From contig NZ_PDBS01000001.1 of assembly GCF_002572525.1 (NCBI RefSeq), forward strand, positions 2,666,001 to 2,730,000: 64,000 bases of DNA, given 5' to 3'. The notes under the pieces are model-generated. The model had not been told where the DNA came from and ran no database searches. It saw only the letters and a program-made list of their open reading frames with translations. The translations under genes and the position numbers were made by a program. The DNA is from Natrinema sp. CBA1119 (GTDB lineage Archaea > Halobacteriota > Halobacteria > Halobacteriales > Natrialbaceae). Within the stretch, counting starts at the first letter, position 1; the number at the start of each line of letters is the position of its first letter. Shown one piece after another: positions 41,141 through 57,829 of this stretch.

Positions 41141-41890
41141 CTACCGACAGCGCTCGAGGACCTCGCGACCCTCGAGGTAGGCGAAGCCGTGGCGGTCCGC
41201 GTAGGCGCGGGCGTCGGCGGGCGAAAGCGCCTCGCCGGTCTCATCGTCGAGCATCTCGCAGACGACGACGGCGGGCGACAGGTCGGCGGCCTCGGCCAGG
41301 GCGACCCCGAGTTCCGTGTGGCCCTCGCGCTGGACGAGCAGGTCCGGCGCGGCCTTGAGCAGGTGAACGTGGCCGGGGACCCGGAACTCCGCGGCGAACT
41401 CGGTTTCGTCAGGTGTGGCGGCGGCGTCGCCGAGCGCCCGGATGGTCGTCGAGCGATCGTCGTCGGTGATCCCGGTATAGGTGTCCCGGTGGTTGACCGT
41501 CAGCGAGAACGACGATCGGTCGTCGTAGCCGAGTTCGTGGTCGGCCGTCGCGGGGTGATCGATCACGTCCGAGTAGAACGGGAGGTCGAACGCCTCCGCG
41601 ATATCGTGGCCGAGCGCGACGCAGACCAGGCCGCCGGCGTCGTTTCGCAATCGGGTGACGGCCTCGGGTGTCACGCTATCAGCGTGATAGATCAGGTCCG
41701 TCTCGCCCTCGCGGTCGGCCGCGTCGTGGACGAGAATCGGCTCGCCCGCCCGGAGCGACTCGAGGGCGTGCTCGAACGAGTTCGCAGGCGGATCGACGCT
41801 CGAGTTCGCCCCGGTGTCGGCGTTCGTTCCACCGTCGGCATTCGTTCCGCCGTCGGCATTCGACTGCGGACCGGCGTGGTGCCCCGTCAT
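41141..41890 (-). CDS. ribB: 3,4-dihydroxy-2-butanone 4-phosphate synthase
   Basis: A 249-residue protein. After a low-complexity Asn/Gly-rich start of about 40 residues, [17 protein letters not shown] near residue 55 holds the acidic metal and substrate site. [14 protein letters not shown] near residue 81 and [17 protein letters not shown] near residue 195 are also conserved. The enzyme turns ribulose 5-phosphate into the four-carbon precursor of riboflavin and releases formate, with Mg(II). The ATG overlaps the stop of rbkR (41887-41889), so the two are co-translated. The odd N-terminal extension is typical of haloarchaeal insertions. Confidence 0.9.
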
Positions 41891-42594
41891 TCGCGATCCC
41901 CCACGGAGACGGTGACGTGATCGCCGTCCTCGAGGGAGAGTTCCTCCCGGAGTTTTTCGGGGGCGATGACCTCGAGTTGGTCGTCGTCGTGGTGGGTGCG
42001 TTCGGGGGCGATGGTGTAGGCGTTCTCGTAGGTCTCGCCGTCGGCGGTCTCGATCGTCGCGGGGTAGCAGACGGCGGGGCCGTAGGTCCGCTCGTCGGAC
42101 TCCCAGCCGTCGATGGGGACGGGTTCGAGCGAGGCCATGGCGCTGCGCCGGCGGACGCTGTCCTCGCGGAGGTCGACGTTCAGCGTGCCGGGGAAGGGCT
42201 CGTAGCCGAGTCGCTCCTCGAACTGGCGTTGGTAGCCCGACAGCGAGATGTAGTGTCGACCTTCGCCCATCCCGCTGGTGACGGTCCCCTCGAGGCCGAT
42301 CTGGGAGTCCGTCTCGAAGATGCGACGGTAATCCTCGTACTCGGCGTGGAGCGCTCGCTCCCCGATCTCCGTGATCGCGACCCACTGGCCGTCGCTGACG
42401 GTGTCGCGCTCGAGCAAGTCGGCGCTCTCGAGGCGCTGGAGTCGTCGCGAGGCGGTCTGGTTCGACGCGTCGAGGCGCTCCGCGAGGTGAGAACAGGAGA
42501 TCTTGACGTCGCCCTCGAGTCCGCCCTCGAGCGCGAGGAGTTTGAGCACGGCGAGTTCGTCGTGCCCGACGGCGGACTCTGCTAGCACTGACAT
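41887..42594 (-). CDS. rbkR: Bifunctional riboflavin kinase / transcriptional regulator RbkR
   Basis: A 235-residue fusion. Residues 10-85 are a winged helix ([20 protein letters not shown], then [20 protein letters not shown]). Residues 100-235 are the archaeal CTP-dependent riboflavin kinase domain, with [30 protein letters not shown], and a final strand [16 protein letters not shown]. It phosphorylates riboflavin to FMN using CTP and, by its HTH, binds flavin-gene promoters; this dual role is known for the RbkR family. The start at 42592-42594 fits. Two TATACCG repeats 21 bases apart lie just upstream and are candidate autoregulatory sites. Confidence 0.9.
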
Positions 42595-42603
42595 ACACGC
42601 ATC

Positions 42604-42631
42604 TATACCGTAGCCCCGTAAAAGTATACCG
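42604..42631 (-). promoter_or_regulatory. Paired TATACCG repeats at the rbkR-ribB promoter
   Basis: TATACCG occurs at 42604-42610 and 42625-42631, exactly 21 bases (two helical turns) apart in the same orientation. On the minus strand, the TATA-like stretch ACTTTTAC, about 27 bases above the rbkR start, sits between them. The upper copy abuts the TATA/BRE region and the lower lies near the start point. This is where a repressor such as RbkR would bind to block transcription. The link to RbkR is inference. Confidence 0.42.
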
Positions 42632-42945
42632 AATGTGGCATGCGTAACGGAACTGTGATGATGTTCACGACCGTTTATCGCGTACTCGGAAATGACCGAC
42701 CGGGTGGAAAAAGCCACCGGTCCGATCGATACCGCTCGAGTGCGTTGGATCAAGTAGCACGTTTCGTCCCCACCGTATAGCCGATTTCTTCGCAGTAATC
42801 GCTTATACGGTCTGTTGGATTACAGCGCAAGATGACCTTCTCTACGTCATGACTTTCGTAGAATAAATAAATTAACTATTTCTATCTTTTATAATGCAAG
42901 GAGACCGGTTTTACCGTAGAATATAGAGCGTATAGGTACATTCGC
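42632..42945 (+). promoter_or_regulatory. AT-rich upstream region of the polysaccharide locus
   Basis: A 314-base gap between divergent operons with no gene. 42850-42890 is a run of A/T (AATAAATAAATTAACTATTT), notable in this genome. TTTTACCG at 42909-42916 and ATATAG at 42921-42926 are possible TATA elements for the GT2 gene starting at 42946. The AT-rich block may hold activator sites; I could not find a clear repeat. Confidence 0.4.
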
Positions 42946-44109
42946 ATGAAACGTTTCTTCGAGGCCCTGTTCGGGCTGATCGCACTGACGGGCCTCCCGT
43001 ATCTGATCTACCTCGTCGTGTACTACGTTCGGCGGCCAACGGGGACGCCCGCCGACACGTGGCCTCGAGAGCCGTCGGTGAGTATCGTCCTCCCGACGTA
43101 CAACGAGGCCGCCATCGTCGAGTCGAAACTCGAGGAACTGGTCGAACTCGACTACCCCATGGAGAACGTGGAAATCGTCGTCGTCGACTCGAGCGACGAC
43201 GGGACGGCGGAGCTGGTGGAGACCTTCTTCGCCGGCCGTCAGGAGCCGAAGCTGACGCTCATCCGGGAGGACGAGCGGCGAGGACTGGCGACCGCCTTGA
43301 ATCAGGCCTACGCCGCCGCGGCGAACGAGGTCGTCGTCAAGACTGACTGCGACTCGCGGCTCGCACCCGACGCGGTTCGAACGGCGGTCGCGAACCTTGC
43401 CGATCCCGACGTGGGAGCGGTGACCGGCCGCAACGCCGAGGTCATCGGCGATAGCGAGGTCGAACAGGGGTATCGCGACATCCAGACGATGATCCAGATC
43501 CTCGAGTCCCACATCGACTCGACGCTGATCTTCCACGGCCCGTTCTCGGCGTTCGAGCGCGACGCAATCGTCCCAATCGACGATGACTCGATCGCCGACG
43601 ACACCGAACTCGCGCTCAAAATCCGGCGAAACGGGGACCGGGTCGTCTTCGATCCCGATATCCATTACAGGGAGGCCGCTCACTCTGAATTCAGTAAGCG
43701 CCGGGAGCAAAAGGACCGCCGCGCGATGGGGCTCCTCCGATTGCTGTGGCGACAGCGCGACGCACTCGGCCGCCACGGGGCCTACGGCCGCATCGTCCTG
43801 CCCTTCAACTGGTGGTTCATGGTCGTCTCTCCGTGGCTCGTCGCCACCGGAATCGCCGTGGCCACGATCGGGTCGCTGGCGGTCGCCGGGCCCTTCGGGC
43901 TGGCGACTCCGGCCGGCGTTCTCGCCTTTACGGCGCTGGGCTCGCGCGATGCGCTCGGGCCGCTCCAGCCGCTGTACTCCCTGTTCGATACCCAGATCTC
44001 GCTCCTTCGGGCGAGCGTCTCGCTCGTCCGCGCTCGAGTCGCCAGCGACGAAGCGAGCCACGACGGCACCTGGTCGCCCGACGAGGAACTCCGGGAGGTG
44101 TTGCAGTGA
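42946..44109 (+). CDS. Membrane glycosyltransferase family 2
   Basis: A 387-residue GT2 enzyme. A first membrane helix (residues 6-28) precedes SVSIVLPTYNEAAIVESKLE, then VVVDSSDDGTAEL and VVVKTDCDSRLAPDAV (DxD-type metal site), and SIADDTELALKIRRNGDRVVF for the acceptor and catalytic aspartate. Two or three further helices (about residues 290-335) end the membrane part. It uses nucleotide sugars at the inner face of the membrane, probably to lengthen a lipid-linked glycan. It is the first gene of the polysaccharide locus. Its TGA overlaps the GTG of the next gene by three bases. Confidence 0.85.
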   Translation: MKRFFEALFGLIALTGLPYLIYLVVYYVRRPTGTPADTWPREPSVSIVLPTYNEAAIVESKLEELVELDYPMENVEIVVVDSSDDGTAELVETFFAGRQEPKLTLIREDERRGLATALNQAYAAAANEVVVKTDCDSRLAPDAVRTAVANLADPDVGAVTGRNAEVIGDSEVEQGYRDIQTMIQILESHIDSTLIFHGPFSAFERDAIVPIDDDSIADDTELALKIRRNGDRVVFDPDIHYREAAHSEFSKRREQKDRRAMGLLRLLWRQRDALGRHGAYGRIVLPFNWWFMVVSPWLVATGIAVATIGSLAVAGPFGLATPAGVLAFTALGSRDALGPLQPLYSLFDTQISLLRASVSLVRARVASDEASHDGTWSPDEELREVLQ

Positions 44110-45362
44110 CGGACGTCGCGATCCTCCACGATCGCTTCCCCGGCATCGGCGGCGGCGAGGAGTTCGCACTCGAGGCCGCCCGGGTGCTCGACGCACCGAT
44201 CTACACCGCCTACGTCGCCGAGGGGACCGACATCCCGGACGACGTCGACGTGATCCCGTTCCGGCAGGCCAAGTACACCTCGCTGCCGTGGCGGCCCTTC
44301 CTCGAGTGGACAAACGAGGGAATGAACCCCCTCGAGACGCTCAACGTCGCGCTCGATATGACCGACGCCCACCCGGATCTCGCGGCGTACGACGTGATCC
44401 TCGAGAGCGCGCCGCTGTCGAAGTACTACGTCCCCGATGTCGGTCAGCGGATCGTCCACTATCCCCACAGCCCGCCTCGGTGGCTGTACGACCTCTATCG
44501 CGATCGACTCTCCTCGTTCGAGTATCCGTTCGTCGAGACTGGGATCAAGGCCTACGCGAAGGGGTGGCGGGCGCTGGACAAGGAGGCGAACGACTACGTT
44601 GACCGCTTCGTCGCGAACAGCGAACTCGTCCGTGATCGGATTCGACGGTTCTACGACCGCGACGCCACGGTCATCTATCCGCCGGTGACCGGCGACTGGC
44701 GCAACGACGGCGACGAGGGCTACTTCGTCACCTGGTCTCGACTCGCCCCCGAGAAGCGGATCGATCTGATCGCGAAGGCCTTCGCCGGACTCGACGAGCG
44801 CCTCGTGATCGCCGGCGACGGGGAGCAGCGCGAGCGACTCGAGGAGTTCGCGTCGAACTACGACAACATCGAGGTTCGGGGGTACGTCGAGGACATCGAA
44901 TCGCTCGTCGCGCGGGCGACCGCGGTCGTCTACGCCCCCAAACAGGAGGACTTCGGCCTCGTCGGGGCCGAGGCCATGATGTCCGGCAAGCCGCTGCTCG
45001 GCGTGAACGAGGGATTCACGCGGTACCAGGTACGGGGCGGTCGAACGGGATTGCTCTTCGAGCCGACGGTCGCATCGATCCGGGACGCGGTTCGGCGGTT
45101 CGATTCCGACGACTACGATTCGACGGAGATTCGGGCGGCTGCGAGGCGATACGAGTACGATCGGTTCGCCGAGGGGCTTCGCGACGTCGTCGAGCAAACG
45201 GCTGCCGCCGACATCGAGACACCGGAACGCAAAGCACAGCGGCAGCCGGAGCGCCCGACCGAAGCGAGACGAACCGCGGACCAGCAGCGCATCGAGGAGG
45301 CATCACAGCCGGTCGACGACGCCGACGAACCCCCCGATCTCGAGGAGGCGACGGATCGATGA
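44106..45362 (+). CDS. Glycosyltransferase family 4
   Basis: A 418-residue GT-B enzyme starting with GTG at 44106. AILHDRFPGIGGGEEFALE is the N-terminal glycine loop. FVTWSRLAPEKRIDLIAKAF near residue 205 and PKQEDFGLVGAEAMMSGKPLL near residue 277 (E-x7-E type) are the sugar-nucleotide binding signatures. The last 50 residues are low-complexity Glu/Arg and probably non-catalytic. It should add a sugar to a growing glycan in the cytosol. Its stop overlaps the next start in ATGA. The donor sugar cannot be told. Confidence 0.88.
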   Translation: MTDVAILHDRFPGIGGGEEFALEAARVLDAPIYTAYVAEGTDIPDDVDVIPFRQAKYTSLPWRPFLEWTNEGMNPLETLNVALDMTDAHPDLAAYDVILESAPLSKYYVPDVGQRIVHYPHSPPRWLYDLYRDRLSSFEYPFVETGIKAYAKGWRALDKEANDYVDRFVANSELVRDRIRRFYDRDATVIYPPVTGDWRNDGDEGYFVTWSRLAPEKRIDLIAKAFAGLDERLVIAGDGEQRERLEEFASNYDNIEVRGYVEDIESLVARATAVVYAPKQEDFGLVGAEAMMSGKPLLGVNEGFTRYQVRGGRTGLLFEPTVASIRDAVRRFDSDDYDSTEIRAAARRYEYDRFAEGLRDVVEQTAAADIETPERKAQRQPERPTEARRTADQQRIEEASQPVDDADEPPDLEEATDR

Positions 45363-46480
45363 CGGCGAGCACGACCGCTCGCGGTCGAGGCGGCGACTCG
45401 AGCGGTGCTAGTCGAGACAGTGATTCAGTGGGACAGACGGGGACGGAGACGCCGCGTCCGCGGCGCGCTGCGACGAGCGACCGGTGTTTGCTCTATCAGA
45501 ACAGCGACGCACACCCCGCACACCGCGTCTTTGCCGACGCCGTGAACGCCGACCGTCGTCACTTCGAGACCGGCGCTCGAGCGCCCGAACCGAACGGAAA
45601 CACCGAGCGGACCATCGATCGACTTCGGACCGCAGGGACGTTGCCGGCGTACGATACCGTCATCGCGGAGGGGAGCGCGCCGCTCCAGACCGGACTCGCG
45701 TACAAACTGCGGCGGCCGGGAACGACCCTCGTCTATCTCGCCGCAGACGAGACGTTTGACACCCTTTCCGAGCGGCCGACGCGACACCTCTGGCGCGGTC
45801 TCAGACCCCTCTCGAGCCGGCTGCTGGACGGCGTGATCGCGGTCGGTCACGACGTCTACCGCTGGGCGCGGCCGTACATCGGCGATGTCCCGGTCGCGTA
45901 CGTCCGGCCGCCGATCGTCGCCGAGAAGTACGAGCGACTCGCGTCGCTCTCGCCGAACTCGCCTCAGGATCCGTTCACGATCCTCTCGGCGGGCGAGGCC
46001 AAACCCGCGAACGGCTACGACCGACTGACTCGAGCGGTCAGACGGTTTGCGAGGACCGTCGACGCCGACGTTCGACTGGTTGTCCTCGGCGAGGGCCACG
46101 AGGTGGAAGCGTACGCGGACAGATCGCACGTGATCACGCCCGGATTCGTCGATCTGGATACCTTCGCTGACTGGTTCGACCGCGCGAGCGTCTACGTCCA
46201 GTCGTCGCGGGGCGACGCGTTTCCCGTCGCGGCGCTCGAGGGGATCCTGTCGGGGACGCCGACGATGGTCACCGACGCGACCGGCGTTCGGGAGTTACTG
46301 CCGTCTCGACAGGTCGTTCCGCCGACCGAGGCGGGCCTGCTCGAGGGTCTGTTTGACAGCTTCGAGCGGGCGCCGTCGGAGCGCCGAGCCGTCGGTCGCG
46401 AGCAGCGAAGCCTCGTGACCGACCTGACCGAATCGAATCAGGGCGACCGATTCAGCGCCGCACTCGCGCAATTCACATGA
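45359..46480 (+). CDS. Glycosyltransferase family 4-like
   Basis: A 373-residue GT-B-type enzyme with a 40-residue low-complexity start. ILSAGEAKPANGYDRLTRAV near residue 203 and SSRGDAFPVAALEGILSGTP near residue 283 mark the C-terminal nucleotide-sugar domain. The glutamate pair typical of GT4 is weakly seen (ALEGILSG). The N-terminal domain is short and lacks the usual glycine loop, so this member is diverged. It sits between the GT4 gene and the first sulfatase-like gene, with ATGA overlaps on both sides, so co-translation is likely. Confidence 0.8.
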   Translation: MTASTTARGRGGDSSGASRDSDSVGQTGTETPRPRRAATSDRCLLYQNSDAHPAHRVFADAVNADRRHFETGARAPEPNGNTERTIDRLRTAGTLPAYDTVIAEGSAPLQTGLAYKLRRPGTTLVYLAADETFDTLSERPTRHLWRGLRPLSSRLLDGVIAVGHDVYRWARPYIGDVPVAYVRPPIVAEKYERLASLSPNSPQDPFTILSAGEAKPANGYDRLTRAVRRFARTVDADVRLVVLGEGHEVEAYADRSHVITPGFVDLDTFADWFDRASVYVQSSRGDAFPVAALEGILSGTPTMVTDATGVRELLPSRQVVPPTEAGLLEGLFDSFERAPSERRAVGREQRSLVTDLTESNQGDRFSAALAQFT

Positions 46481-47931
46481 CCGGGGCCGACCGACCGGAC
46501 CGACCGAACATCGTCGTCGTCTGTCTCGACACCGTCAGAAAGGACGTCTACGACCGAGACGCGACCCGACTCCGGGAACTGGCGTCCGTCCGCTTCGAGG
46601 GGATGCGGGCGCTCGCGGGCTGGAGCGTCCCGAGCCACGCCGGGATGCTGACTGGCTCGGTCCCGTCGGAAACGGGCGTCCACGCTCACCAGCGCCGGTT
46701 CGACCCGATCGACGTCGCGGACACCTGGATCGCGCCCCTCTCGAGGGCGGGATACGAATCGGTCTGCGTCACGTCGAACATCTACGCTAGTCCCGTCTTC
46801 GGGTTCGACCGGTTCTTCGACCGGACGGTCCCCGTCTCGCCGAGTCGCAGGCTGCCAGCGGGGATGGACGTTCAGCGACACATCTCCAATCGATCGACCG
46901 AGGGCATGGAGGCTTACGCCGATTTCGTCCGGCAGGCCCTCGACCACGATTATCCGCTGCGATCGCTGGCCAACGGCGTCCTCCTCAAACTGGACGACGT
47001 GAGTCGGAAGCTGCCGATCGAGAAGCCGACCGACTTCGGCGGTCGGTCGATCGCTCGAGCCCTCGAGCGCGAGGTCACCGAGCCAGACGGGCCGGTGCTC
47101 GCCTTCGCCAACCTCATGGACGCCCACGGCCCCCACACCCCGTTTCGCGGGTTGGACGACTCGATTCACGGCGTTTCCGCGGCGTTCCACTCGAGTTCGT
47201 TCCGGGACTCGGACGTGAACGCCGCGAACGGTCTCGGCGAGTTCGAATCGTCCGTCGAGCACGTCCGCCGACTGTACGCCGCGACCGTCGACTACCTCGA
47301 CCGGCTCGTCGCCGACCTCGTGAGGGCACTGGAGACCGGCGACGACCGCGAGTCGATCCTGATCGTGACGGCGGACCACGGTGAAAACCTCGGCTACGAA
47401 TCCGACGGCTACCTCATGAACCATATGAGCAGCCTCTCGGAGGGGCTGTTGCACGTTCCGTTCGACATCGTTTCTACGAGCGACCGCGCCCTCGAGGTCG
47501 CGGAAGAGACTCCCGTCGACGTGGACGGGCTCAGTTCTCACGCCGATCTCGGCGACGTGATTCGCGCGCTCGCGAGCGAGGAGCCGTTCGATCCGTTCGC
47601 GTTCGAACGCGAGCGCGCTCGAACCGAGATCGTCGGTTCGGGCTCCGGGATCCCGGAGGACGGAGACGAATCGTACTGGGACCGGGGACAGCGGGTGCTC
47701 TATCGCGGCGATCGGAAGTACTACCGCGACCAGCTCGGCACCGAGGCGGTGTACGATGTCTCCGGCCCGCCGTCGAAGCAAGTCGAACGCCCCGACGAGA
47801 CGGTGCCCGATGGCCTCTTCGAGTCCGCCTTCGGCGATTGGATCACTGACGAGGAGCACGATGAGTCGGCGTTCGCCGAGGAGGTAGACGCGGCGAGCCG
47901 CGCGCGACTCGAGGATCTGGGATACCTATGA
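46477..47931 (+). CDS. Sulfatase-like alkaline phosphatase superfamily enzyme
   Basis: A 484-residue protein. NIVVVCLDTVRKDVYD near residue 11 gives the first metal aspartate, and ADHGENLGYESDGY near residue 296 the second metal site. The nucleophile region is GWSVPSHAGMLTG (Ser50-x-Pro52-x-His54), with Ser in place of the formylglycine Cys and His in place of Arg. The enzyme is therefore not a classic sulfatase. A phosphatase or phosphotransferase acting on a surface polymer is more likely. It has no signal peptide, so it may work on cytosolic or membrane-linked intermediates. It ends RLEDLGYL, an ending shared with other members here. Confidence 0.8.
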   Translation: MTGADRPDRPNIVVVCLDTVRKDVYDRDATRLRELASVRFEGMRALAGWSVPSHAGMLTGSVPSETGVHAHQRRFDPIDVADTWIAPLSRAGYESVCVTSNIYASPVFGFDRFFDRTVPVSPSRRLPAGMDVQRHISNRSTEGMEAYADFVRQALDHDYPLRSLANGVLLKLDDVSRKLPIEKPTDFGGRSIARALEREVTEPDGPVLAFANLMDAHGPHTPFRGLDDSIHGVSAAFHSSSFRDSDVNAANGLGEFESSVEHVRRLYAATVDYLDRLVADLVRALETGDDRESILIVTADHGENLGYESDGYLMNHMSSLSEGLLHVPFDIVSTSDRALEVAEETPVDVDGLSSHADLGDVIRALASEEPFDPFAFERERARTEIVGSGSGIPEDGDESYWDRGQRVLYRGDRKYYRDQLGTEAVYDVSGPPSKQVERPDETVPDGLFESAFGDWITDEEHDESAFAEEVDAASRARLEDLGYL

Positions 47932-47965
47932 GCACGAATTCGATTCGAACGGAGAGCACGAACAC

Positions 47966-49075
47966 ATGACGGACACGACCCTGCTAGTCACGGTTGACTC
48001 GCTTCGAACCGATCACGTGCAGTTTATGCCCCGGACCCTGTCATTTCTGGACGATACTCACGACGCCGCCTTCGCCACGAGCACCGCGACGCCCGGCAGC
48101 TTCCCGGCGATCATCGGCGGGGAGTACCCGGCCGGCAACGGGCTCGAGCCGACGGTCAGCGTCGCCCACGAGTTCGACGCCCACTGCGTCGGAATCACGA
48201 CGAATCACCTGCTGTCCGCGGAGTACGACTACGCGACCGGGTTCGACTCGTTCACATCGCCCAAAGGCGGCGGTGAGTCGCTGAAGGACAAGGGGGCGAT
48301 CGTGCTCGAGCGCGGTTCGCTTCCCTACAAAATCGCCAGTTGGGGCTACAACCGATACCAGCAACTCCGGAGTTACGTCGACGAGACCGAGAAGTCGTTC
48401 CGGCCCGCGGACGACGTCGTCGACCAGTTCCGAGCCGAAATCGACGGCCGCGAGGAGTGGTTCGGCTGGCTGCACTTCATGGAACCCCACCATCCCTACG
48501 ACCCCGACGGCGCGGATATCGACCGAGCGGCGGCACAGCGGATCACTCGCCGCGTGCTTTCCGGTCGCGGCTCCGACGAGGACGAGGCCCTCGTTCGAGA
48601 GCTCTACCGGCAGGAGATCGCCGAACTCGACGCGGCCCTCGAGTCCCTCTGGAACGCGATCCCCGATGACGCTCGCGTCGTCTTCTGCGGCGATCACGGC
48701 GAACTCCTCGGCGAGGACGGCCTGTGGGGCCACCCCGGCGAGATGCGGCCCGAACTCCTGAACGTCCCCTTTGGCACGCGGAACGCGCCCGACCTCGGCG
48801 AGGTCGTCTCCCTGATCGACGTTCCGACGATCCTGACTGGCGTCGAACACCGCCAGGGGACGCTCGAGCGCGAAATCGCCTTCGCCGCCTACGGGGATCG
48901 AAAGGCCGCGATGACCGCCGACCGCATCGCGACGAAGGAGGGAACGTATCGACTCGAGGACGGCGAGAGGGTGGAAGACCCCGGTCTCGAGGGGGAACTC
49001 GAGCGGTTCGATCCCGCCTACGTCGTCAAGGAGGACGCGCTGCAGGAAGATCTGGAGGATCTGGGATACGCATGA
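47966..49075 (+). CDS. Sulfatase-like alkaline phosphatase superfamily enzyme
   Basis: A 369-residue protein. LLVTVDSLRTDHVQFMP near residue 6 gives the first aspartate; the nucleophile loop is TSTATPGSFPAIIGG near residue 38, with Thr42 or a neighbour as candidate. CGDHGELLGEDGLWGHPGE near residue 240 holds the remaining metal ligands. No Cys-x-Pro-x-Arg is present. It ends EDLEDLGYA. The gene begins after a 34-base gap that contains a short frame (47928-47969, ATG to TGA) overlapping both genes. It probably acts with its neighbours on a shared polymer. Confidence 0.78.
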   Translation: MTDTTLLVTVDSLRTDHVQFMPRTLSFLDDTHDAAFATSTATPGSFPAIIGGEYPAGNGLEPTVSVAHEFDAHCVGITTNHLLSAEYDYATGFDSFTSPKGGGESLKDKGAIVLERGSLPYKIASWGYNRYQQLRSYVDETEKSFRPADDVVDQFRAEIDGREEWFGWLHFMEPHHPYDPDGADIDRAAAQRITRRVLSGRGSDEDEALVRELYRQEIAELDAALESLWNAIPDDARVVFCGDHGELLGEDGLWGHPGEMRPELLNVPFGTRNAPDLGEVVSLIDVPTILTGVEHRQGTLEREIAFAAYGDRKAAMTADRIATKEGTYRLEDGERVEDPGLEGELERFDPAYVVKEDALQEDLEDLGYA

Positions 49076-49989
49076 CTGTCGTCGTCCTGGCGCTCGACGC
49101 GCTCGACGCCGGACTGGTCGACCACTTCGACCTCGACGCCGTCCGCCTCGAGTCCGGCGGCGAGATCGAGACGTTCGCGAACACGCAGTCCGTGCCGTAC
49201 ACGCCGGAGGTCTGGGCGACCGTCGCGACCGGGCTCGAGCCGGCCGAACACGGGATCACCGGCGGCGGCACGAGCGAGTGGAAAAACCCCGCGCTCGACT
49301 TCGCGTCGTCGTTCACCGGTCGCCTCGACGAGTCGACCAGGGGAACGCTCGGCAAGCTCGTCCGGTCGCGGACCGGTAACCGCGAGCGCATCGGCGAGAC
49401 GGACCGCGAGTCGATGTTCGACGCCGACGATGCGGTCGTCCACAACTGGCCGGGCGTCCACGACGGACGGCCGCTCCAGCGGGCCTGGGACCTGATGAAC
49501 GCCGTCGCGGAGGGGATGCCTCGCCACGAGTTCGAGCGCGAACTGTTCGGCCTCTGCGCCCAGCAGTTCGGCTGGGCCCGCGAGATGCTCGCGCACCCGG
49601 TCTCGATCGCCGGGGTCCACATCCACACGCTCGATGCGGCGGGCCACGCCTACGCCGACGACGAAGCCGCGCTGGGTCGCGCCTACGATCGAGTCGGCGA
49701 GTACGTCGCGGAGGTCGTCGCCGCTCTCGGCGAGGACGACGACCTCCTCGTCGTCAGCGATCACGGGATGCGCGCCGCGTTCTATCCGCCCGACGCGGGC
49801 GAGAAGCCGGCGAGTCACTCCTGGCGCGCGTACGCGAGTTCCACGACCGAGACCGCTCCGGAGTCGGTGTACGACGTGCGGCAATGGGTGGAGGAACGCG
49901 CGGCGGCGTCCGGAGCGAGCGCGCCCGGGGGCGACGAGGGGATCGACATGCCGACCGACCGCCTGCGCGAACTCGGCTACCTCGATTGA
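49072..49989 (+). CDS. Alkaline phosphatase superfamily (NPP-like) enzyme
   Basis: A 305-residue protein of the nucleotide pyrophosphatase/phosphodiesterase type. VVVLALDALDAGLVDHF near residue 3 has the first aspartate, and YTPEVWATVATGLEP near residue 43 has the threonine nucleophile. HIHTLDAAGHAYADD near residue 184 and LLVVSDHGMRAAFYPP near residue 223 hold further metal ligands. It should cut or transfer phosphodiester bonds. The ATG overlaps the previous stop (ATGA). It ends LRELGYLD, close to the ending of the sulfatase-like proteins beside it. No membrane anchor is visible. Confidence 0.8.
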   Translation: MTVVVLALDALDAGLVDHFDLDAVRLESGGEIETFANTQSVPYTPEVWATVATGLEPAEHGITGGGTSEWKNPALDFASSFTGRLDESTRGTLGKLVRSRTGNRERIGETDRESMFDADDAVVHNWPGVHDGRPLQRAWDLMNAVAEGMPRHEFERELFGLCAQQFGWAREMLAHPVSIAGVHIHTLDAAGHAYADDEAALGRAYDRVGEYVAEVVAALGEDDDLLVVSDHGMRAAFYPPDAGEKPASHSWRAYASSTTETAPESVYDVRQWVEERAAASGASAPGGDEGIDMPTDRLRELGYLD

Positions 49990-49997
49990 CGGTTCAG

Positions 49998-50054
49998 CGA
50001 TGCAGCAATGCGGCGATGCGGCAATGCGGCGATGCGGCAACGCAACGATGCGGC
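49998..50054. repeat. Short tandem repeat ATGCGGC(G/A)
   Basis: Just after the NPP-like gene, AATGCGGCGATGCGGC occurs twice (50007-50022, 50023-50038), with looser copies on both sides. The unit is about 8 bases. No gene covers it. It separates the first and second halves of the polysaccharide locus and precedes a new promoter. Confidence 0.85.
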
Positions 50055-50108
50055 GGTCGGAACGAGTGAGCAGCGTCGAAACGGACCGTTCAACGGTCGT
50101 AGTCGCTG

Positions 50109-50118
50109 CATAATTATC
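50109..50118 (+). promoter_or_regulatory. TATA element before the pyruvyl transferase gene
   Basis: CATAATTATC lies about 27-35 bases before the ATG at 50144, the spacing expected for a leaderless transcript. It follows the only large gap (154 bases) inside the polysaccharide locus, so the downstream genes probably form a second transcription unit. Confidence 0.5.
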
Positions 50119-50143
50119 ACCGATTCCGGTGGAGCAACCCGCA

Positions 50144-51160
50144 ATGCGAATCCTGCTTCTCCGGACGTGGACGACGAACATCGGGAACGGCTTCATCGAC
50201 TACGGGGCGAGAGCGATGCTCGAGCGGGCGTTTCCCGACGCGGAGATCGTCGAAACGGGCGGCTATCCCAACCACGCGGCGGACACCGCGGCGCTGTGGG
50301 GCGGCACCCGGAAGCTCGCTCGGATGACGGGGATCGGGCAGTCCGACTACGAGTCGCCGACCCACCGGATTCGGCGGAATACGATGAACGTCAGCGAACT
50401 GATCGACGCCGACCTGGCCGTCTTGCCTGGCTGCGTGCTCTCTCGACCGACCTTTCGGAAGTACTACGACACGCTCCGGCAACTCAGGGAGCGAGATATT
50501 CCGATCATTATTATCGGCGGAGGCGGCGAGGAGTACGACGAGGACGAGCGGCGGTACGTCGAGGCCGTCTTCGACGCGCTCGACATCGGCGTGTTGCTCA
50601 CTCGGGACCGGACCGCCTACGAGGAGTACGGCGACCTCGTCGAGTACCTGTACGACGGCATCGACTGCTCGCTGTTCCTGGGCGACGCTCACCAGCCGCC
50701 GGAGGCGAACCGCGAGTTCGACGTCCACACGTTCGACAAGGGCGAGGAACCCGATATCGACGAGACCTCGACGCCGACGATCGTTCGGCCCGATCACGCC
50801 CCCTTCGACGAACCGTATCACTTCCCGGTCGGCGAGCGAGCGCGGGAACTGGTCGGCCTCGAGACGCCGCTGTTCGAGGCGGAGAACGTCTTCGTCTCCG
50901 ACCTCGTGACCGATTACCTCTTCCTCTACGCGAACGCGGACGTGGTGCGATCGGACCGGATCCACGCCTGCCTTCCTGCGCTGACCTACGGCAACCGGGC
51001 TCAGTTCTACTTCGACACTCCTCGAGCGAACCTGTTCGATCGGGTCCCGATCGACGGCGACGTCACGAGCGAGCCGGTCCGGTTCGAGATGGACGAACTC
51101 GAGCGCGAGAAGGACGCGCAGGTCGACGCGCTCGAGGAAGGAATCGCAACGGTCCTGTGA
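50144..51160 (+). CDS. Polysaccharide pyruvyl transferase family protein
   Basis: A 338-residue protein. ILLLRTWTTNIGNGFIDYGA at the N-terminus, the glycine-rich PIIIIGGGGEEYDEDE near residue 116, and RSDRIHACLPALTYGNRAQF near residue 270 are typical of the pyruvyl transferase (CsaB/WcaK) family. These enzymes put pyruvate from phosphoenolpyruvate on a sugar as a ketal, adding negative charge and often anchoring surface-layer proteins. No S-layer homology domain is known here, so charge or binding is the likely purpose. The ATG at 50144 fits the promoter spacing. It is followed by a sulfatase-like gene. Confidence 0.84.
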   Translation: MRILLLRTWTTNIGNGFIDYGARAMLERAFPDAEIVETGGYPNHAADTAALWGGTRKLARMTGIGQSDYESPTHRIRRNTMNVSELIDADLAVLPGCVLSRPTFRKYYDTLRQLRERDIPIIIIGGGGEEYDEDERRYVEAVFDALDIGVLLTRDRTAYEEYGDLVEYLYDGIDCSLFLGDAHQPPEANREFDVHTFDKGEEPDIDETSTPTIVRPDHAPFDEPYHFPVGERARELVGLETPLFEAENVFVSDLVTDYLFLYANADVVRSDRIHACLPALTYGNRAQFYFDTPRANLFDRVPIDGDVTSEPVRFEMDELEREKDAQVDALEEGIATVL

Positions 51161-51242
51161 GCGGAGCCGTGACGGTGACTCGACGGCCTCCTGCAGCCGG
51201 TTCCATCGCCGGGAGTAGGTTCTTTACCGGAGATATGGAACG

Positions 51243-52655
51243 ATGAACGGAACCGCGACTATGGGAGACGAGCCATCCATCGCCCTCGTCGTGCTCGACA
51301 CGCTTCGCGCGGATTCGTTCGACGAGCACTTCGAGTGGCTGCCGGGCGTGCAGTTCACGAACGCGTGGAGTACGACCCACTGGACGGCCCCGGCCCACGC
51401 CTCGCTGTTTACCGGTCGCTACGCGGTCGAGGCCGGCGTGACGATCAAATCACAGGAGTTCGATCGAGAGACCACGCGTCTTCCCGAACTGTTGCAGCAT
51501 CGGGGGTATCGCACGCGGGCGTTCAGCTGTAACGTCAATATCTCGGCGCAACTGGGCTGGCACCACGGGTTCGACGAGTTCGACGGCGGCTGGCGGCTCC
51601 GCGGCCTCGGTGAGGACGTCTTCGACTGGGACGAGTTCATCGCCGAACACCGCTCCGACGGCCCCGAGCGCTACCTCCGGGCGCTCTGGCGCTGCGTCGA
51701 CGACGACTGCGACACGACCCAGTCGCTGAAACAGGGCGCCCTGATGAAGCTCCGAGATATGGGACTCACGGGCCGCCACCCCGACGACGGCGCGGCCGAG
51801 TTCCGCGAGTACGTCCGCGATAGCTCGTGGAACCGAGATTCCGAGTTCCTCTTCGCGAACCTCATGGAGGCCCACCTGCCGTATGATCCGCCCGACGAGT
51901 ACCGCACCTATCCGGACGAGGAGTCGCCCCACTTCGACAGCGTGAAGGCTACGCTCCGGGAGCCGTCGGCCGATCCGGACCGGATCAGGACCGCGTACGA
52001 CGACGCCGTGCAGTACCTGTCGGACATATACCGCGACATCTACGGCGAACTCGCGGCGGAGTTCGACTACGTCGTGACGCTCGCCGACCACGGCGAAGCG
52101 CTCGGGGAGTACGGTGCGTGGCAACACGGCGGCGGGCTCCACCCGCCCGTGACGCGGATTCCGCTGGTCGTCTCCGCGCCCGGACCGAACCCCGACGATC
52201 GAACCCCGAACGCGGACGGCGCGGGGCGAGCGACGCGGGACGCCCTCGTGAATCTGCTGGACGTCTACGCGACGGTGCTCGACCTCGCCGGAATCGAGTC
52301 CGACCACCGCCGCGGGAAGTCGTTTCGGCCGCTGCTCTCGAGCGACCCAATCGTGACGGACCCGCGGGCGAACGCGCTGCTCGAGTACCACGGCATCTCG
52401 AAGCGACGAGCGCTCGCGCTCGAGGCGGACGGCTACGACATCGCGCCCGTCGACCGCGAGCGCCACGGTATCGCGACGGCCGACTGCTACTATTTCGAGG
52501 GCCCGTTCGGAACCGAACTGCTCGGCGACTGCGACCCGGCGCCCCTCGAGTCGGACCTCGAGGGACTGATCGCCGACCTAGAGATGCGAGACGGCCTCGG
52601 CGAGGCGGATCTCTCCGGGCTCGAATCACAACTCGAAGATCTGGGGTATCTGTGA
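51243..52655 (+). CDS. Sulfatase-like alkaline phosphatase superfamily enzyme
   Basis: A 470-residue protein. SIALVVLDTLRADSF near residue 12 gives the first aspartate; STTHWTAPAHASLFTGRY near residue 43 has Thr48-x-Pro50-x-His52 as the nucleophile loop. TLADHGEALGEYGAWQHGGG near residue 280 holds the second metal site. Like the gene at 46477 it lacks Cys and Arg of the formylglycine motif. It ends QLEDLGYL. Alternative ATGs lie at 51243 and 51261. The flippase gene follows after 19 bases, so the two are probably co-transcribed. A signal peptide is not visible. Confidence 0.8.
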   Translation: MNGTATMGDEPSIALVVLDTLRADSFDEHFEWLPGVQFTNAWSTTHWTAPAHASLFTGRYAVEAGVTIKSQEFDRETTRLPELLQHRGYRTRAFSCNVNISAQLGWHHGFDEFDGGWRLRGLGEDVFDWDEFIAEHRSDGPERYLRALWRCVDDDCDTTQSLKQGALMKLRDMGLTGRHPDDGAAEFREYVRDSSWNRDSEFLFANLMEAHLPYDPPDEYRTYPDEESPHFDSVKATLREPSADPDRIRTAYDDAVQYLSDIYRDIYGELAAEFDYVVTLADHGEALGEYGAWQHGGGLHPPVTRIPLVVSAPGPNPDDRTPNADGAGRATRDALVNLLDVYATVLDLAGIESDHRRGKSFRPLLSSDPIVTDPRANALLEYHGISKRRALALEADGYDIAPVDRERHGIATADCYYFEGPFGTELLGDCDPAPLESDLEGLIADLEMRDGLGEADLSGLESQLEDLGYL

Positions 52656-52674
52656 CTGCCGTCTCAGTACAGCC

Positions 52675-54117
52675 ATGAGCGACGCGACGTCGGTCAGCCT
52701 CGGGGGCGAGACGGTCAAGGCGACGGCCGCGAAGTTCACGATGGCCGCGATCGGGTTCCTCGGAACGATCGTCTTCGCTCGAGCGCTCGGACCGACCGGA
52801 TTCGGCGGCTACTACCTCCTCTTTTCGCTGGTGAAGATCGCCGATCGAGCGGTCAACGGCTGGGGAACGGCGGTCAAAAAGCGGTATTCGGAGGCCGACG
52901 CCCCGTCGGGGGAGCTGATCGGCAGCCAGGGGCTGTTCACGCTAGTGTGGATGGCGCTGGCCATCGCAGCCGCCGCCGTCGCCGCGAGCTGGCTCGCCTC
53001 CTACACGGGCCTCCCCGACGCGCCGGTGTTGTTCGTCGTCTTGCTGTTCGCGGTCACGCTGTTCGAACCGCTCGATCTGATCGTGCAGGCCCGCGGCCGC
53101 GTCGGGGCCTCGATGTGGACCGATACGCTCCGGTCGCTGCTCACATTCCCGCTCCAGCTCGGCCTGATCGTCCTCGGATTCGGCGCTGCGGGCATGGCCT
53201 ACGGGCTGGCCGCGGCGACGTTCCTGACGGTCCCGGTCCTCTGGTACTACGTCCGAACGCGGCCGGTCGCGCCGAGCCGGGCGACCGTGTCGAACCTCTG
53301 GTCGTACGCCAGGTACAGCATTCCGAACTCGTTTCTCGGACAGGCCTACGACCGCTTCGACATCATCCTGCTGGGCTATCTGCTCGCCCCCGCCGCCGCC
53401 GGACGGTACGAGGTCGCGCTCAAGCTCACGGTGCCGGCGACGTTCGTGACGATGGCCGCCTCGAGCGGCCTGATGGCTCGCGTGAGCCACCGCCACAGTA
53501 AGGACGAGGAGCTTGGAACGGACGTCTCGAACACCCTCTCGTTCACGAGCATTTTTGCGATCCCGATGTTCTTCGGTGCCGTCGCGCTGTCCGAACAGCT
53601 CGTGGTGACGTTCTTCGGTCCCGACTACGCCGCGGCCGCGGGACTCCTCGTCGGACTCGCGGCGTACCAGATCGCGAAGACCCAGGCCGGCGTGCTCACG
53701 AGCGTGCTCTACGGGATCGACCGCCCGGACGTCAACACGCGCGTCTCAGCCCTGACGCTGGCGATCAACGTGGCTCTCGGCGTCGCGCTGACGCTCGCCT
53801 ACGGCGCGATCGGCGTCGTGGTCGCGACGGCCGTCGCCGAGACGCTCCGATACGTGCTCTCGGCCGCCGTCGTCAAGCGGGAGCTCTCGTCGGTCGTCCT
53901 GTTTCCCCGGACGCTCGGCGAGCAGTTCGCGGCCGGCGCGGTGATGTTCGTCGTCGTCGTCGCCGCCGAGCGCGCCGTCCCGATCGACCACTGGTATCAG
54001 CTCCTCGCGATCGTCGCACTGGGTGCGGCGGTGTACGGCGTCACGCTGACGGCCATCAGCCGGAAGCTCCGCGTGACGATCAGAGGCGTCGTCCGCAGTT
54101 CGCGACTCGAGTTGTAG
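52675..54117 (+). CDS. Polysaccharide flippase (Wzx/MATE-like)
   Basis: A 480-residue protein with about fourteen membrane helices, typical of lipid-linked oligosaccharide flippases of the MOP superfamily. TAAKFTMAAIGFLGTIVFAR at helix 1 and ALGPTGFGGYYLLFSLVKIADRAV at helix 2 match the family start. FDIILLGYLLAPAAAGRYEVALK near residue 225 is the conserved mid-helix stretch. It would move the finished glycan-lipid from the cytosolic to the outer face of the membrane. It ends the locus; the next genes run in the opposite direction. Confidence 0.86.
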   Translation: MSDATSVSLGGETVKATAAKFTMAAIGFLGTIVFARALGPTGFGGYYLLFSLVKIADRAVNGWGTAVKKRYSEADAPSGELIGSQGLFTLVWMALAIAAAAVAASWLASYTGLPDAPVLFVVLLFAVTLFEPLDLIVQARGRVGASMWTDTLRSLLTFPLQLGLIVLGFGAAGMAYGLAAATFLTVPVLWYYVRTRPVAPSRATVSNLWSYARYSIPNSFLGQAYDRFDIILLGYLLAPAAAGRYEVALKLTVPATFVTMAASSGLMARVSHRHSKDEELGTDVSNTLSFTSIFAIPMFFGAVALSEQLVVTFFGPDYAAAAGLLVGLAAYQIAKTQAGVLTSVLYGIDRPDVNTRVSALTLAINVALGVALTLAYGAIGVVVATAVAETLRYVLSAAVVKRELSSVVLFPRTLGEQFAAGAVMFVVVVAAERAVPIDHWYQLLAIVALGAAVYGVTLTAISRKLRVTIRGVVRSSRLEL

Positions 54118-54147: not shown

Positions 54148-54963
54148 TTACAGGTTCTCGGCGATATAATCGGCGATCGTTGCGACCTGTGCCGGATCGG
54201 CAGTCCAGAACCCGTCCCAGATGCGCGGCTCGGTTTCGAGACAGAGCAATGCCAACGGCTGGGCCGCCTCTCCGTCCGCGCGGGCGGCGGAGTCGTCCGG
54301 TTCGTAGACGACGAACCAGGCGTCCCGATACTCGGCCTCCGTTCCGGTGTGGACGGTCAGATCGAGGCCGACCGCCGTCCCGTCGTCGACGCCGTAAACG
54401 TGGGTCTCGACGTCCGTCGCCGCCAGTTCGGCGTAGACCTCGGCGGTCCCGATCTCGTCGTCGATGCGCGAGAGTCGCTGAAACGCGCTGTGAAGGGTCC
54501 CGCTGCCCGCGTTCCAGGTCCGTTGCTCGATGTAGCGCGAGACGAGGATCAACAGCAGTTTCTCCTTGTGCGCGAGCGGATAGCCGCGAAGCCGAAGTCG
54601 CGTGTTCTCGAGGCCCGCCAGGACGTCGGGGAACTCGATCTCGCCGATGCCGCGCGCGCCGGTGACGAATAGATCGGAATTGATCGCGAGCAACGAGTCG
54701 TACAGTTCGAGCATCGAGGAGGCAGCGACCGGTCGCCCGTCCTCGAGCAGGACGGCCGTGTCGCCGTCCGCCTCGAGCGTCCGGGCCACTGCCGGCGGCG
54801 GATCGGCGATGTCGTCCGCCCTGAGCCCGCTCTCGACGGCGATCGGCTGGTCCCCGAACGTCTCGGCGAGCATCGACTCGAGGGGACCCATCGCGTCGTC
54901 GCTGATAACCGCGATCGTTTGGTTCGGGGGGCCAACCTCGTCGATAAACGATCGAAGTGTCAC
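54148..54963 (-). CDS. DICT sensory domain protein
   Basis: A 271-residue soluble protein of the haloarchaeal DICT type. It starts TLRSFIDEVGPPNQTIAVIS, has the mid-region LRLRGYPLAHKEKLLLILVSRYIE near residue 120, and ends RIWDGFWTADPAQVATIADYI, the part that I most readily recognise. DICT domains are linked to light or stress signalling and may bind a small ligand. Alone, this gene may be a sensor that acts on another protein. It is convergent with the flippase gene, 30 bases apart, so the start at 54961-54963 is divergent from nothing in the locus. Confidence 0.72.
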   Translation of the reverse strand: MTLRSFIDEVGPPNQTIAVISDDAMGPLESMLAETFGDQPIAVESGLRADDIADPPPAVARTLEADGDTAVLLEDGRPVAASSMLELYDSLLAINSDLFVTGARGIGEIEFPDVLAGLENTRLRLRGYPLAHKEKLLLILVSRYIEQRTWNAGSGTLHSAFQRLSRIDDEIGTAEVYAELAATDVETHVYGVDDGTAVGLDLTVHTGTEAEYRDAWFVVYEPDDSAARADGEAAQPLALLCLETEPRIWDGFWTADPAQVATIADYIAENL

Positions 54964-55032
54964 CTGTACACGTTGTCGAATTCGATTCTTAAACGTTCTC
55001 GCCGATCGGGGAGTACCGGCGAAACGGCAGTC

Positions 55033-56066
55033 TCAGTCGCTGGTGACCGGATCCCGCTCCCAGAACTCGCTGTCCTTCTGGAGCTTCGGGACCCACGTGT
55101 CCGAGGTCTGCGAGAGGAGCGCGACGCGGGAGGCCGGCACCCCCATGACCTCGTCGAATCCGGGCATGTACTCCTGTACGTCCTCGGTGAACTCGATGAC
55201 TTCCTCGTGTTCGGGCATCGCGGAGCGATCGAGTCGCCCTCTCGAGTGGCCGACGTGCATGTACGCCTTCAGCTCGATGAAGTCGGGGTCGGCCTGCTGG
55301 TAGAAGCCGGCGTACCAGTCCGGATTCCGCATGTTCTCGCCCTTGACGAGCGTCGTTCGGAGGACCGTCCGGGTCTCGTCTTTGTCCGCGAGGACGTCCA
55401 TCGTCTCGAGGAGTTTCTCCCAGGCGTCCGCTTCCATCGCGCCGACGACCTGATCGAAGGTGTGGCGCTCGGGGGCGTCGACGCTGACGTACAGTTGCGT
55501 GGGATCGCAGTCCCGGAGCATCTCGGGCCGGGTGCCGTTCGAGACGAGGAACGTGGTGATGTCGCGGTCGTGGAAGGCCTCGATGAGTTCGGGGAGGTAG
55601 GGGTAGAGCGTCGGTTCGCCGTCCAGCGAGATGGCGACGTGGCGGGGCTCCATCGCCTGGTCGAACACCTCGCGGGGGACCTCCTCGTTCCCACCGAAGC
55701 CCGAGAGGAGTTTCTTCTGCAGTTTGATCGAGGCGTCGACGACTTCCTCGGGTCGTCCCACTGGACGTCGTCCATCTCGTAGGAGTGGCCCTTGTGGTCG
55801 CGCCAGCAGAAGACGCAGCGCTCGTTACACCGGACGACCGGCGTCATCTGGATGCAGCGGTGTGACTCGATGCCGTAGAAGATGTTCTTGTAACACTTCC
55901 CCTCGCCGCGCAGGGCGTTGGCTGTCCAGCCGCAGGTCTGGGCGGCCGTGTGATTCTCGCTGTGATAATCCGGGCTCGAGACCTGTGCCGGCCCGCCGTC
56001 GTCGCCGTCGCCGCTGTCGACGTCGGCGCTCGCGCCGTCGGCCCCGGGGTTCGCGGAGTCGCTCAT
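55033..56066 (-). pseudogene. taw1: 4-demethylwyosine synthase Taw1, broken by a one-base frameshift
   Basis: The first part (to about 55753) encodes a radical-SAM protein: Cys45, Cys58 and Cys71 of the extra cluster, then VVRCNERCVFCWRDHKGHS with CxxxCxxC at residues 80-87. The second part begins in another frame with EEVVDASIKLQKKLLSGFGG and continues with AISLDGEPTLYPYLPELIE and FYQQADPDFIELKAYMHVGH to the end. The parts abut exactly at GGG (55750-55752). One extra base there would restore a full-length 344-residue Taw1, which makes the tricyclic base of wyosine on tRNA-Phe. Because the rest is intact, sequence error is as likely as real loss. Confidence 0.85.
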
Positions 56067-56643: not shown

Positions 56644-56664
56644 GCCTCTCGAATCACTCACGTG

Positions 56665-57726
56665 ATGGCAGACAACCAGTTCGGACGCTCTGCTGACGGG
56701 GTATCGCGACGGAAGTTCATTGCGGCGACCGGCGCTATTGGGACGATGGCGGCCGCCGGCTGTCTCGGAAACGCAGACGAGGGCAACGGTACCGAACCGC
56801 TGACGGCCGACGGCTCGTCGACCGTTTATCCGATCACCAACGACGCCGATTCGCTGTGGAACGGGAACCCGCCGGCCGACGACGAGGAGTACTGGGGTCC
56901 GGGACAGTACGACATCGATACGGACGAGAACCTCGCTGACTACTGGGCGGGCCTCTACGGCTTCGAACCGACCGAAGAGCGCAGCGTCCCGCCGTTTTCG
57001 ACACAGATCGCGTTGAGCCACTCCGGGACGGGTGTCGAGGGCGTCATCAACGAGCGCGTCGATATCGGTGACGCGAGTTCGACGGCTGAATCCATCCTCG
57101 GATCGGACCACGAAGAACTGGACAACATCGTCGACCACGTCGTCGCCGTCGACGGCCAGCCGATCGTCGTGAGCCGGGAAATATACGACGCGGGCGTCAC
57201 GCAGGTCACCGGCGACGAACTCCGCGCAATCTACAAACAGGAGATCACGAACTGGAGCGAACTCGGCGGCCCGGACCAGGAGATCTACGCCATCGGCCGC
57301 GCGGAGGACTCCGGGACCGACACCGCGTTCCGTAACAACCTCTACGGTGACCCCGAGGAGCCGATCGAACCCGACACACGGAAAGGTCAGAACCAGCAGG
57401 TCGCGACCCTCGTCGAGCAAAACGACAACGCGATCGCCTACATCGCGCTCGCGTTCGTCGAACCGGACGGCGCGACCCCGCCGATCGGCCTCGAGCTGGA
57501 TGGCACCCTCTACGAGTACGGCAACAACCTCGGTGCGAAGGAGTACCCGCTCAGCCGCGACCTTCACTGTTACACCTACGAGGATACCGACAATCGCGAG
57601 AGCGCCTTCCTCAACATGATCCTCTCGGACTTCGGGCAGCAGAACTTCGTCGAACCGAACAACTACTTCAAACTCCCGACGGAGCGCCGCGAGGAGGAAC
57701 GAGGAAAGCTGGCGGACCAGGCCTGA
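56665..57726 (+). CDS. pstS: Phosphate ABC transporter substrate-binding protein PstS (first copy)
   Basis: A 353-residue exported lipoprotein. Twin arginines (SRRKFIAATGAIG, near residue 16) and a lipobox (MAAAGC, Cys near residue 33) direct Tat export and lipid attachment. TADGSSTVYPITNDADSLW near residue 47 is the phosphate-binding motif, and ALSHSGTGVEGVINERVDIGD near residue 113 continues the binding pocket. The protein binds phosphate outside the membrane and passes it to PstCA. GTG at 56662 is possible, but ATG at 56665 is preferred. Its promoter block is shared with a second pstS at 63214. Confidence 0.9.
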   Translation: MADNQFGRSADGVSRRKFIAATGAIGTMAAAGCLGNADEGNGTEPLTADGSSTVYPITNDADSLWNGNPPADDEEYWGPGQYDIDTDENLADYWAGLYGFEPTEERSVPPFSTQIALSHSGTGVEGVINERVDIGDASSTAESILGSDHEELDNIVDHVVAVDGQPIVVSREIYDAGVTQVTGDELRAIYKQEITNWSELGGPDQEIYAIGRAEDSGTDTAFRNNLYGDPEEPIEPDTRKGQNQQVATLVEQNDNAIAYIALAFVEPDGATPPIGLELDGTLYEYGNNLGAKEYPLSRDLHCYTYEDTDNRESAFLNMILSDFGQQNFVEPNNYFKLPTERREEERGKLADQA

Positions 57727-57806
57727 GCCGCGCTTCCGACTCGCGTCACCCGGCTCTCGTCCGGCCTGACCGTCTCCAAGCCGAGAACCATACGCTATCA
57801 TGTTAG

Positions 57807-57821
57807 GTATATTGAATATAC
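57807..57821. promoter_or_regulatory. Perfect palindrome before pstC
   Basis: GTATATTGAATATAC is a perfect inverted repeat (6-base arms, 3-base centre) nine bases before the proposed pstC ATG at 57830. It overlaps an earlier in-frame ATG (57800). It may be an operator, an internal promoter, or chance in an AT-rich gap of 103 bases after pstS. Confidence 0.35.
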
Positions 57822-57829
57822 GCACGACG

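Follow-up and report, generated by a model that had tools for sequence, protein, structure and literature searches.

The closest described system to the locus analysed here is the aglB cluster of Halobacterium salinarum, which contains three proteins of the alkaline phosphatase (AP) superfamily: Agl30 (VNG1056C), Agl31 (VNG1057C) and VNG1063H (PMC11980604). Deletion of either VNG1056C or VNG1057C lowers N-glycan sulfation, expression of either Agl30 or Agl31 in Haloferax volcanii gives rise to a sulfated N-glycan, and VNG1063H has no effect on sulfation of the H. salinarum N-glycan (PMC11980604). Sulfation in H. salinarum happens on the dolichol phosphate-linked glycan; Agl31 is soluble, and Agl30 is hydrophobic at its N-terminus (PMC11980604). 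AP-fold sulfotransferases were first named in 2025, in this one species (PMC11980604). The subject of this work is a nine-gene locus of Natrinema sp. CBA1119, which lies in a 64,000-nucleotide stretch of contig NZ_PDBS01000001.1 (positions 2,666,001–2,730,000; hereafter the window, numbered from its first base). The locus encodes three glycosyltransferases (GT2, GT4a and GT4b), four AP-superfamily proteins (AP1–AP4), a pyruvyltransferase-like protein (PT) and a flippase (FLIP). Its overall product is most likely a negatively charged sugar chain for surface proteins. An earlier note on this DNA had proposed that the AP enzymes move phosphate; we find that the pathway type had already been described for H. 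salinarum in 2025, and that phosphate transfer giving a teichoic-acid-like product is not the interpretation with the strongest support.

AP1 and the sulfotransferases of H. salinarum

The Agl30/Agl31 cluster was located in H. salinarum DSM 3754, on a contig without VNG tags, where genes were assigned by their order, their length and the hydrophobic N-terminus of Agl30. AP1 aligns end to end with the gene assigned as Agl31 (E=1e-83 over 479 columns; 37% aligned identity), and its next-best match in H. salinarum has E=1e-11. In the opposite direction, AP1 is the best match of Agl31 among the AP proteins compared from the window's genome, i.e., the two are mutual best matches. They also have in common a set of invariant, putative catalytic residues: D18, S50, H54, N101, H217, D300, H301 and H316. 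Judged by this homology, AP1 is most likely an Agl31-type N-glycan sulfotransferase, and AP2 and AP4 probably also add sulfate, by analogy. A gene of Agl31 type is present in 90 of the 392 genomes compared within the order; in one genome (G023, C1:353448–354938) AP1 looks broken or split, by either sequencing error or decay.

The likeness between the two loci extends beyond AP1. Both combine glycosyltransferases with AP proteins that lack the sulfatase motif (three in H. salinarum), GT4a shares 35% identity with its GT4 counterpart in the H. salinarum cluster, and most of the variant cassettes described below (type B) carry homologs of Agl30. The Natrinema locus differs in that (i) it occupies another chromosomal site, with aglB about 89 kb off, (ii) it has four AP proteins, including AP3 of the nucleotide pyrophosphatase/phosphodiesterase (NPP) type, (iii) its AP2 and AP4 families have no close H. 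salinarum counterpart, and (iv) it has an added pyruvyltransferase-like gene. Against the claim that no described haloarchaeal pathway has this exact set, the aglB-anchored H. salinarum cluster, with its three AP proteins, comes close, but contains no pyruvyltransferase.

A further shared trait concerns the protein ends. Nearly all AP proteins compared, including AP1–AP4, Agl30, Agl31 and VNG1063H, carry a C-terminal L-x-x-LGY. Across 33 loci, LGY falls within the last nine residues of 117 of 568 roughly predicted open reading frames (ORFs), among which AP orthologues are over-represented.

Active sites of the AP proteins and PT

Type I sulfatases are recognised by three features: a C-x-P-x-R nucleophile loop, a GKWH motif and a Lys near the DHG loop. 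As the earlier note had stated, the C/S-x-P-x-R loop needed by formylglycine sulfatases is missing in all four AP enzymes, and the loops that it quoted are present (SVPSH in AP1, TATPGS in AP2, TPEVW in AP3 and TAPAH in AP4). Alignments with orthologues and haloarchaeal AP proteins reveal that AP1, AP2 and AP4 retain the first Asp, a Ser or Thr at the nucleophile position (Ser50 in AP1, invariant Thr42 in AP2 and invariant Thr48 in AP4) and the DHG loop. In these three proteins—AP3 being outside the comparison—Asn occupies the GKWH site, and the Lys near the DHG loop is replaced by an invariant His, which falls within about a residue of the sulfatase Lys site in the PDB alignment. The comparison is able to recognise a sulfatase, since a PF00884 protein from the same genome (C1:2003288–2004388) displays all three features: a Cys loop (CSSAR), GKWH and Lys. 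No match to PF03781, the formylglycine-generating enzyme (FGE) family, was obtained in the genome, the anaerobic radical-SAM maturase not having been searched for. By these active-site residues, AP1–AP4 are not canonical formylglycine sulfatases, and that identity was rejected. The C1:2003288–2004388 protein is the only PF00884 protein compared from the genome with a sulfatase-like Cys loop, GKWH and Lys, and yet FGE was not found there.

From the missing motif it had been argued that the enzymes transfer phosphate. This step is not supported: Agl31, for which there is genetic and heterologous-expression evidence as a sulfotransferase, is also without the motif. Its loop reads SVSSH, and so the absence of C-x-P-x-R is no argument for phosphate; deducing phosphate transfer from motif loss alone was rejected as an argument.

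Structure prediction, which had been suggested as a check, was applied to AP2 and AP3. The AlphaFold model of AP2 (pLDDT 78) returned sulfatases as top Foldseek matches, followed by LtaP/LtaS and phosphonate monoester hydrolase. For AP4, the PDB sequence matches are carbohydrate sulfatases, and the profile weakly matches phosphoethanolamine transferases. AP3 stands apart. Its nearest relatives in the PDB, by both sequence (E about 1e-4) and fold, are the NPP-type phosphodiesterases ENPP4 and Xac NPP; both matches are weak, with TM about 0.4 for a model of low confidence (pLDDT 69). Seven AP3 residues (D9, T44, D188, H192, D230, H231 and H249) are invariant in the orthologue alignment and make up a full NPP-type two-metal set, in which D188–H231 were assigned via the PDB alignment and the remaining residues are ones that we take to be equivalent to the ligands of NPP structures. 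AP3 thus keeps an NPP-type two-metal site, Thr44 included, which makes phosphodiester chemistry possible; AP3 may use it. Compared with Xac NPP and ENPP4, AP3 is shorter, predicted to be cytosolic and encoded within a glycan locus. At two related loci, AP3 looks broken or split (L037, 8320–9027; L039, 10707–11216), sequencing error and decay not being distinguished.

The PEP-binding R-x-H motif of the PF04230 family is present in PT as R272-I-H274, which is invariant in the orthologue alignment. In a review of ketal pyruvyltransferases, Pvg1p is described as pyruvylating yeast N-glycans, and its R337-L-H339 contacts PEP (phosphoenolpyruvate) in a model (PMC6801904). PT resembles CsaB, Pvg1p and WcfO, the ketal pyruvyltransferases treated there, in its PF04230 match and C-terminal R-x-H motif (PMC6801904), but it is barely above the Pfam cut-off and has no PDB relative by sequence. 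The passages of that review consulted describe no archaeal enzyme (PMC6801904), and no paper on a haloarchaeal pyruvyltransferase was found among the open-access papers searched.

Cassette exchange and linkage of related modules to aglB

The nine genes form plus-strand ORFs spanning 42946–54117 of the window (Table 1), their families supported by Pfam as first described. Tight packing was borne out for half of the junctions: four of the eight are 4-base overlaps of the ATGA or GTGA kind, and the rest are gaps of 34, 154, 82 and 19 bases. Comparison of gene order, the other check that had been proposed, revealed the same nine-gene order in 11 relatives from two genera, with each gene 78–96% identical; the arrangement is therefore not due to chance, and the unit is maintained.

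In 24 of the loci compared, the genes sit at one site, between RFK/DHBP genes and—where the stretch reaches that far—a TYW1-like gene. Two types of cassette occupy this site. Type A, that of the window, has GT4b, AP1, PT and AP4 as its middle genes. Type B keeps GT2, GT4a, AP2, AP3 and FLIP around different middle genes (AP3 is not matched as such in locus L053). PT occurs only in type A. Most type B middles consist of an Agl30-type AP protein (34–36% identity to Agl30), an AP4-type protein and a reversed AP3-type gene, and three (L041, L054 and L055) contain AP1- and GT4b-type genes. GT4b itself is 78–91% identical in type A loci, 37–40% in those three type B loci, and missing from most others. 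Trees of the flanking genes reject a single type A clade (p-AU 0.0036), and trees of AP2, AP3 and FLIP reject a single clade of the genus (p-AU 1.4e-5); both tests used quick trees, with groups defined by gene content and genus. These results fit exchange of cassettes between lineages in a serotype-like manner. Fixed flanks, conserved ends, a variable middle and exchange between lineages are also features of bacterial capsule and O-antigen loci and of the alternative glycosylation clusters of Haloferax, where surface types have been likened to serotypes (PMC5867893). The present locus departs from both in having no polymerase or chain-length genes and an unusual load of AP-superfamily proteins.

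In other genomes, related modules adjoin aglB or lie near it. At two loci (L049 and L052), homologs of GT2, AP2 and FLIP, together with a GT4a-like one, are followed directly by AglB (STT3, AglB_core and AglB_L1 domains), and a further genome (G049) has its RFK/TYW1 site some 10 kb away from aglB. Among the 72 genomes that have an AP1/Agl31-type gene, 20 carry it at a distance of at most 30 kb from aglB, against about 1.1 expected, although the genomes are related and the significance of this count is overstated. This comparative context points to AglB-type N-glycan assembly.

Further observations concern other loci and the surroundings of this one. A second, weaker AglB-like match in the window's genome (C1:2863987–2865858), near glycosyltransferases and another AP protein (C1:2877633–2878625), suggests a further glycan locus. 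Three loci elsewhere (L050, L061 and, in genome G027, L062) combine glycosyltransferases with several AP-like proteins (e.g., 519, 533 and 451 aa in L062), and so AP-rich glycan loci exist beyond the RFK/TYW1 site. Within the window, a short tandem repeat (ATGCGGCA-type; 49997–50055) lies inside the AP3–PT gap (49990–50143), whose length varies between about 0.1 and 1.6 kb among type A relatives and which is a possible insertion point. Scans for tandem repeats, promoters and terminators gave nothing informative on function, the promoter scan covering bacterial sigma-70 sites only. Past the right boundary, a PstS-like gene and apparent phosphate-transporter membrane and ATPase genes (56662–62702) are probably unrelated to the locus.

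Table 1. Genes of the Natrinema sp. CBA1119 locus and its boundaries (window coordinates)
Feature	Position	Strand	Evidence
GT2, membrane glycosyltransferase family 2	42946..44109	+	Pfam PF00535/PF13641; hydrophobic segments around residues 4 and 290 (hydropathy); same site in relatives
GT4a, soluble glycosyltransferase, GTG start	44106..45362	+	PF00534; overlaps GT2 by 4 bases
GT4b, variable-cassette glycosyltransferase	45359..46480	+	PF00534/PF13692
AP1, soluble AP-superfamily protein, Agl31 (VNG1057C)-type, putative N-glycan sulfotransferase	46477..47931	+	PF00884, 62 bits
AP2, soluble AP-superfamily protein, core gene of locus	47966..49075	+	PF00884, 37.5 bits, partial
AP3, PF01663-type AP protein, core gene	49072..49989	+	Phosphodiest PF01663, 52 bits
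PT, PF04230 pyruvyltransferase-like	50144..51160	+	PS_pyruv_trans, 27.2 bits (cut-off 25.3)
AP4, soluble AP-superfamily protein, variable-cassette gene	51243..52655	+	PF00884, 84 bits
FLIP, MOP/Wzx-type flippase	52675..54117	+	Polysacc_synt_3, PF13440/PF01943; many hydrophobic segments (hydropathy)
Left boundary gene labelled RFK, outside the system	41887..42753	-	74–97% in relatives; label from gene context only
Right boundary, DICT-domain-like protein and TYW1-like gene, outside the system	54148..55761	-	Conserved in relatives

Proposed pathway, alternatives and meaning

The reading that we favour, and hold to be probable, is an N-glycan-type pathway in which a lipid-linked oligosaccharide is assembled, modified by the AP proteins (with sulfate), pyruvylated, flipped and most likely passed to AglB. 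On the cytosolic side of the membrane, GT2, GT4a and GT4b would assemble the sugar chain on a polyprenol carrier. AP1–AP4, which have no membrane segment by hydropathy, would then act in the cytosol as group transferases on the lipid-linked glycan; the lack of membrane segments fits action before flipping. AP1 would add sulfate in the manner of Agl31, and AP2 and AP4 would probably do the same; AP3 would be an NPP-type enzyme with two metals, acting on either a phosphodiester or a sulfuryl substrate. PT would add a pyruvyl ketal, drawing pyruvate from PEP, FLIP would carry the finished oligosaccharide outward, and AglB, which we presume to act in this way in this species, would attach it to protein, resulting in a strain-specific anionic glycan. 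For every enzyme of the pathway we infer substrate and activity, as we do the donor.

Three sets of points weigh against this pathway. Firstly, the assignment of sulfate leans on Agl30 and Agl31, for which the evidence is genetics and mass spectrometry rather than purified enzymes (PMC11980604). Identity to Agl31 is below orthologue level for AP4 (28.5%) and AP2 (about 25%; range about 25–29%), the AP3 site is of phosphodiesterase type, and VNG1063H is not a sulfotransferase for the H. salinarum glycan, such that membership of the AP family does not fix the reaction. Secondly, no sulfuryl donor route was found for the window's genome. In both this genome and that of H. salinarum, there was no match to the PF01747 ATP sulfurylase (other ATP sulfurylase models were not searched), no CysD above the cut-off, and only P-loop matches to adenosine 5'-phosphosulfate (APS) kinase. 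The APS-kinase match of H. salinarum was rejected, being on reading an FtsY-like P-loop, and the other weak matches cover the same 50 positions. The same gap thus exists in H. salinarum, which does sulfate. Thirdly, aglB in the window's genome lies about 89 kb upstream with its own glycosyltransferase cluster, and so the locus could instead serve a different acceptor, for instance an exopolysaccharide or a glycolipid.

An exopolysaccharide or capsular product in place of an N-glycan is, in our estimation, rather unlikely. A GT2 with membrane segments and a Wzx-type flippase would suit such a product, as would the distant aglB with its separate cluster, and there is a precedent in AepG of Haloarcula hispanica, which is encoded in an aglB cluster yet acts in exopolysaccharide synthesis (PMC9943897). 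On the other hand, the nine genes include no Wzy-type polymerase, chain-length regulator or export system, and in relatives the related modules adjoin aglB.

Unlikely, too, is that the AP enzymes move phosphate-linked groups (e.g., phosphoglycerol from archaetidylglycerol), making a phosphodiester-rich, teichoic-acid-like polymer. The Thr or Ser at the nucleophile position and the invariant His near the sulfatase Lys site could be taken as pointing this way, but the identical signature occurs in the sulfotransferase Agl31, and hence is no pointer to phosphate. The LtaP/LtaS-like fold of AP2, the weak phosphoethanolamine-transferase match of the AP4 profile and the two-metal site of AP3 also speak for it. 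Lipoteichoic acid (LTA) synthases and phosphoethanolamine transferases (LtaS, EptA/MCR) share with the AP proteins the AP fold, a Thr at the nucleophile position and group transfer to surface glycans. These bacterial enzymes are membrane-anchored with the catalytic domain outside the cell, whereas AP1–AP4, only distantly related to them, are predicted to be cytosolic. Further, the nine genes include neither a membrane-anchored, outward-facing polyol-phosphate (such as phosphoglycerol) transferase nor a TagF-type or other polymerase, nor any polyol-phosphate synthesis gene. What survives of the anionic, teichoic-acid-like polymer is its charge: an anionic surface glycan is sensible, and PT keeps its R-x-H, but the comparative context points to AglB-type assembly.

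We consider it very unlikely that the AP proteins trim or recycle precursors as hydrolases, be they phosphatases, phosphodiesterases or sulfatases. Their Pfam and PDB neighbours are mostly hydrolases, but the number of AP-type genes per locus at this site, three to five, is more in keeping with several decorations of a single glycan than with recycling, and the two tested haloarchaeal relatives add sulfate (PMC11980604).

We also put forward a broader proposal, tentatively, as possible though doubtful. Haloarchaea may possess a cytosolic AP-fold toolkit in which a Ser/Thr nucleophile carries sulfate (in AP3, possibly a phosphodiester group) onto lipid-linked glycans from a donor other than 3'-phosphoadenosine 5'-phosphosulfate; together with pyruvyl transfer, the enzymes would be swapped in varying combinations, as cassettes at one site, setting both the pattern of surface charge and the surface type.

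The analysis corrects a tempting shortcut, in that loss of the sulfatase motif does not imply phosphate. The Agl31 type recurs across the order (90 of 392 genomes), and AP families related to it are brought together in cassettes that can be exchanged. The locus and its relatives provide a defined gene set with which to ask what group each AP protein moves. They also open two wider questions: the identity of the sulfuryl donor in archaea for which no APS kinase was found, and whether surface type swaps under virus or mating pressure.

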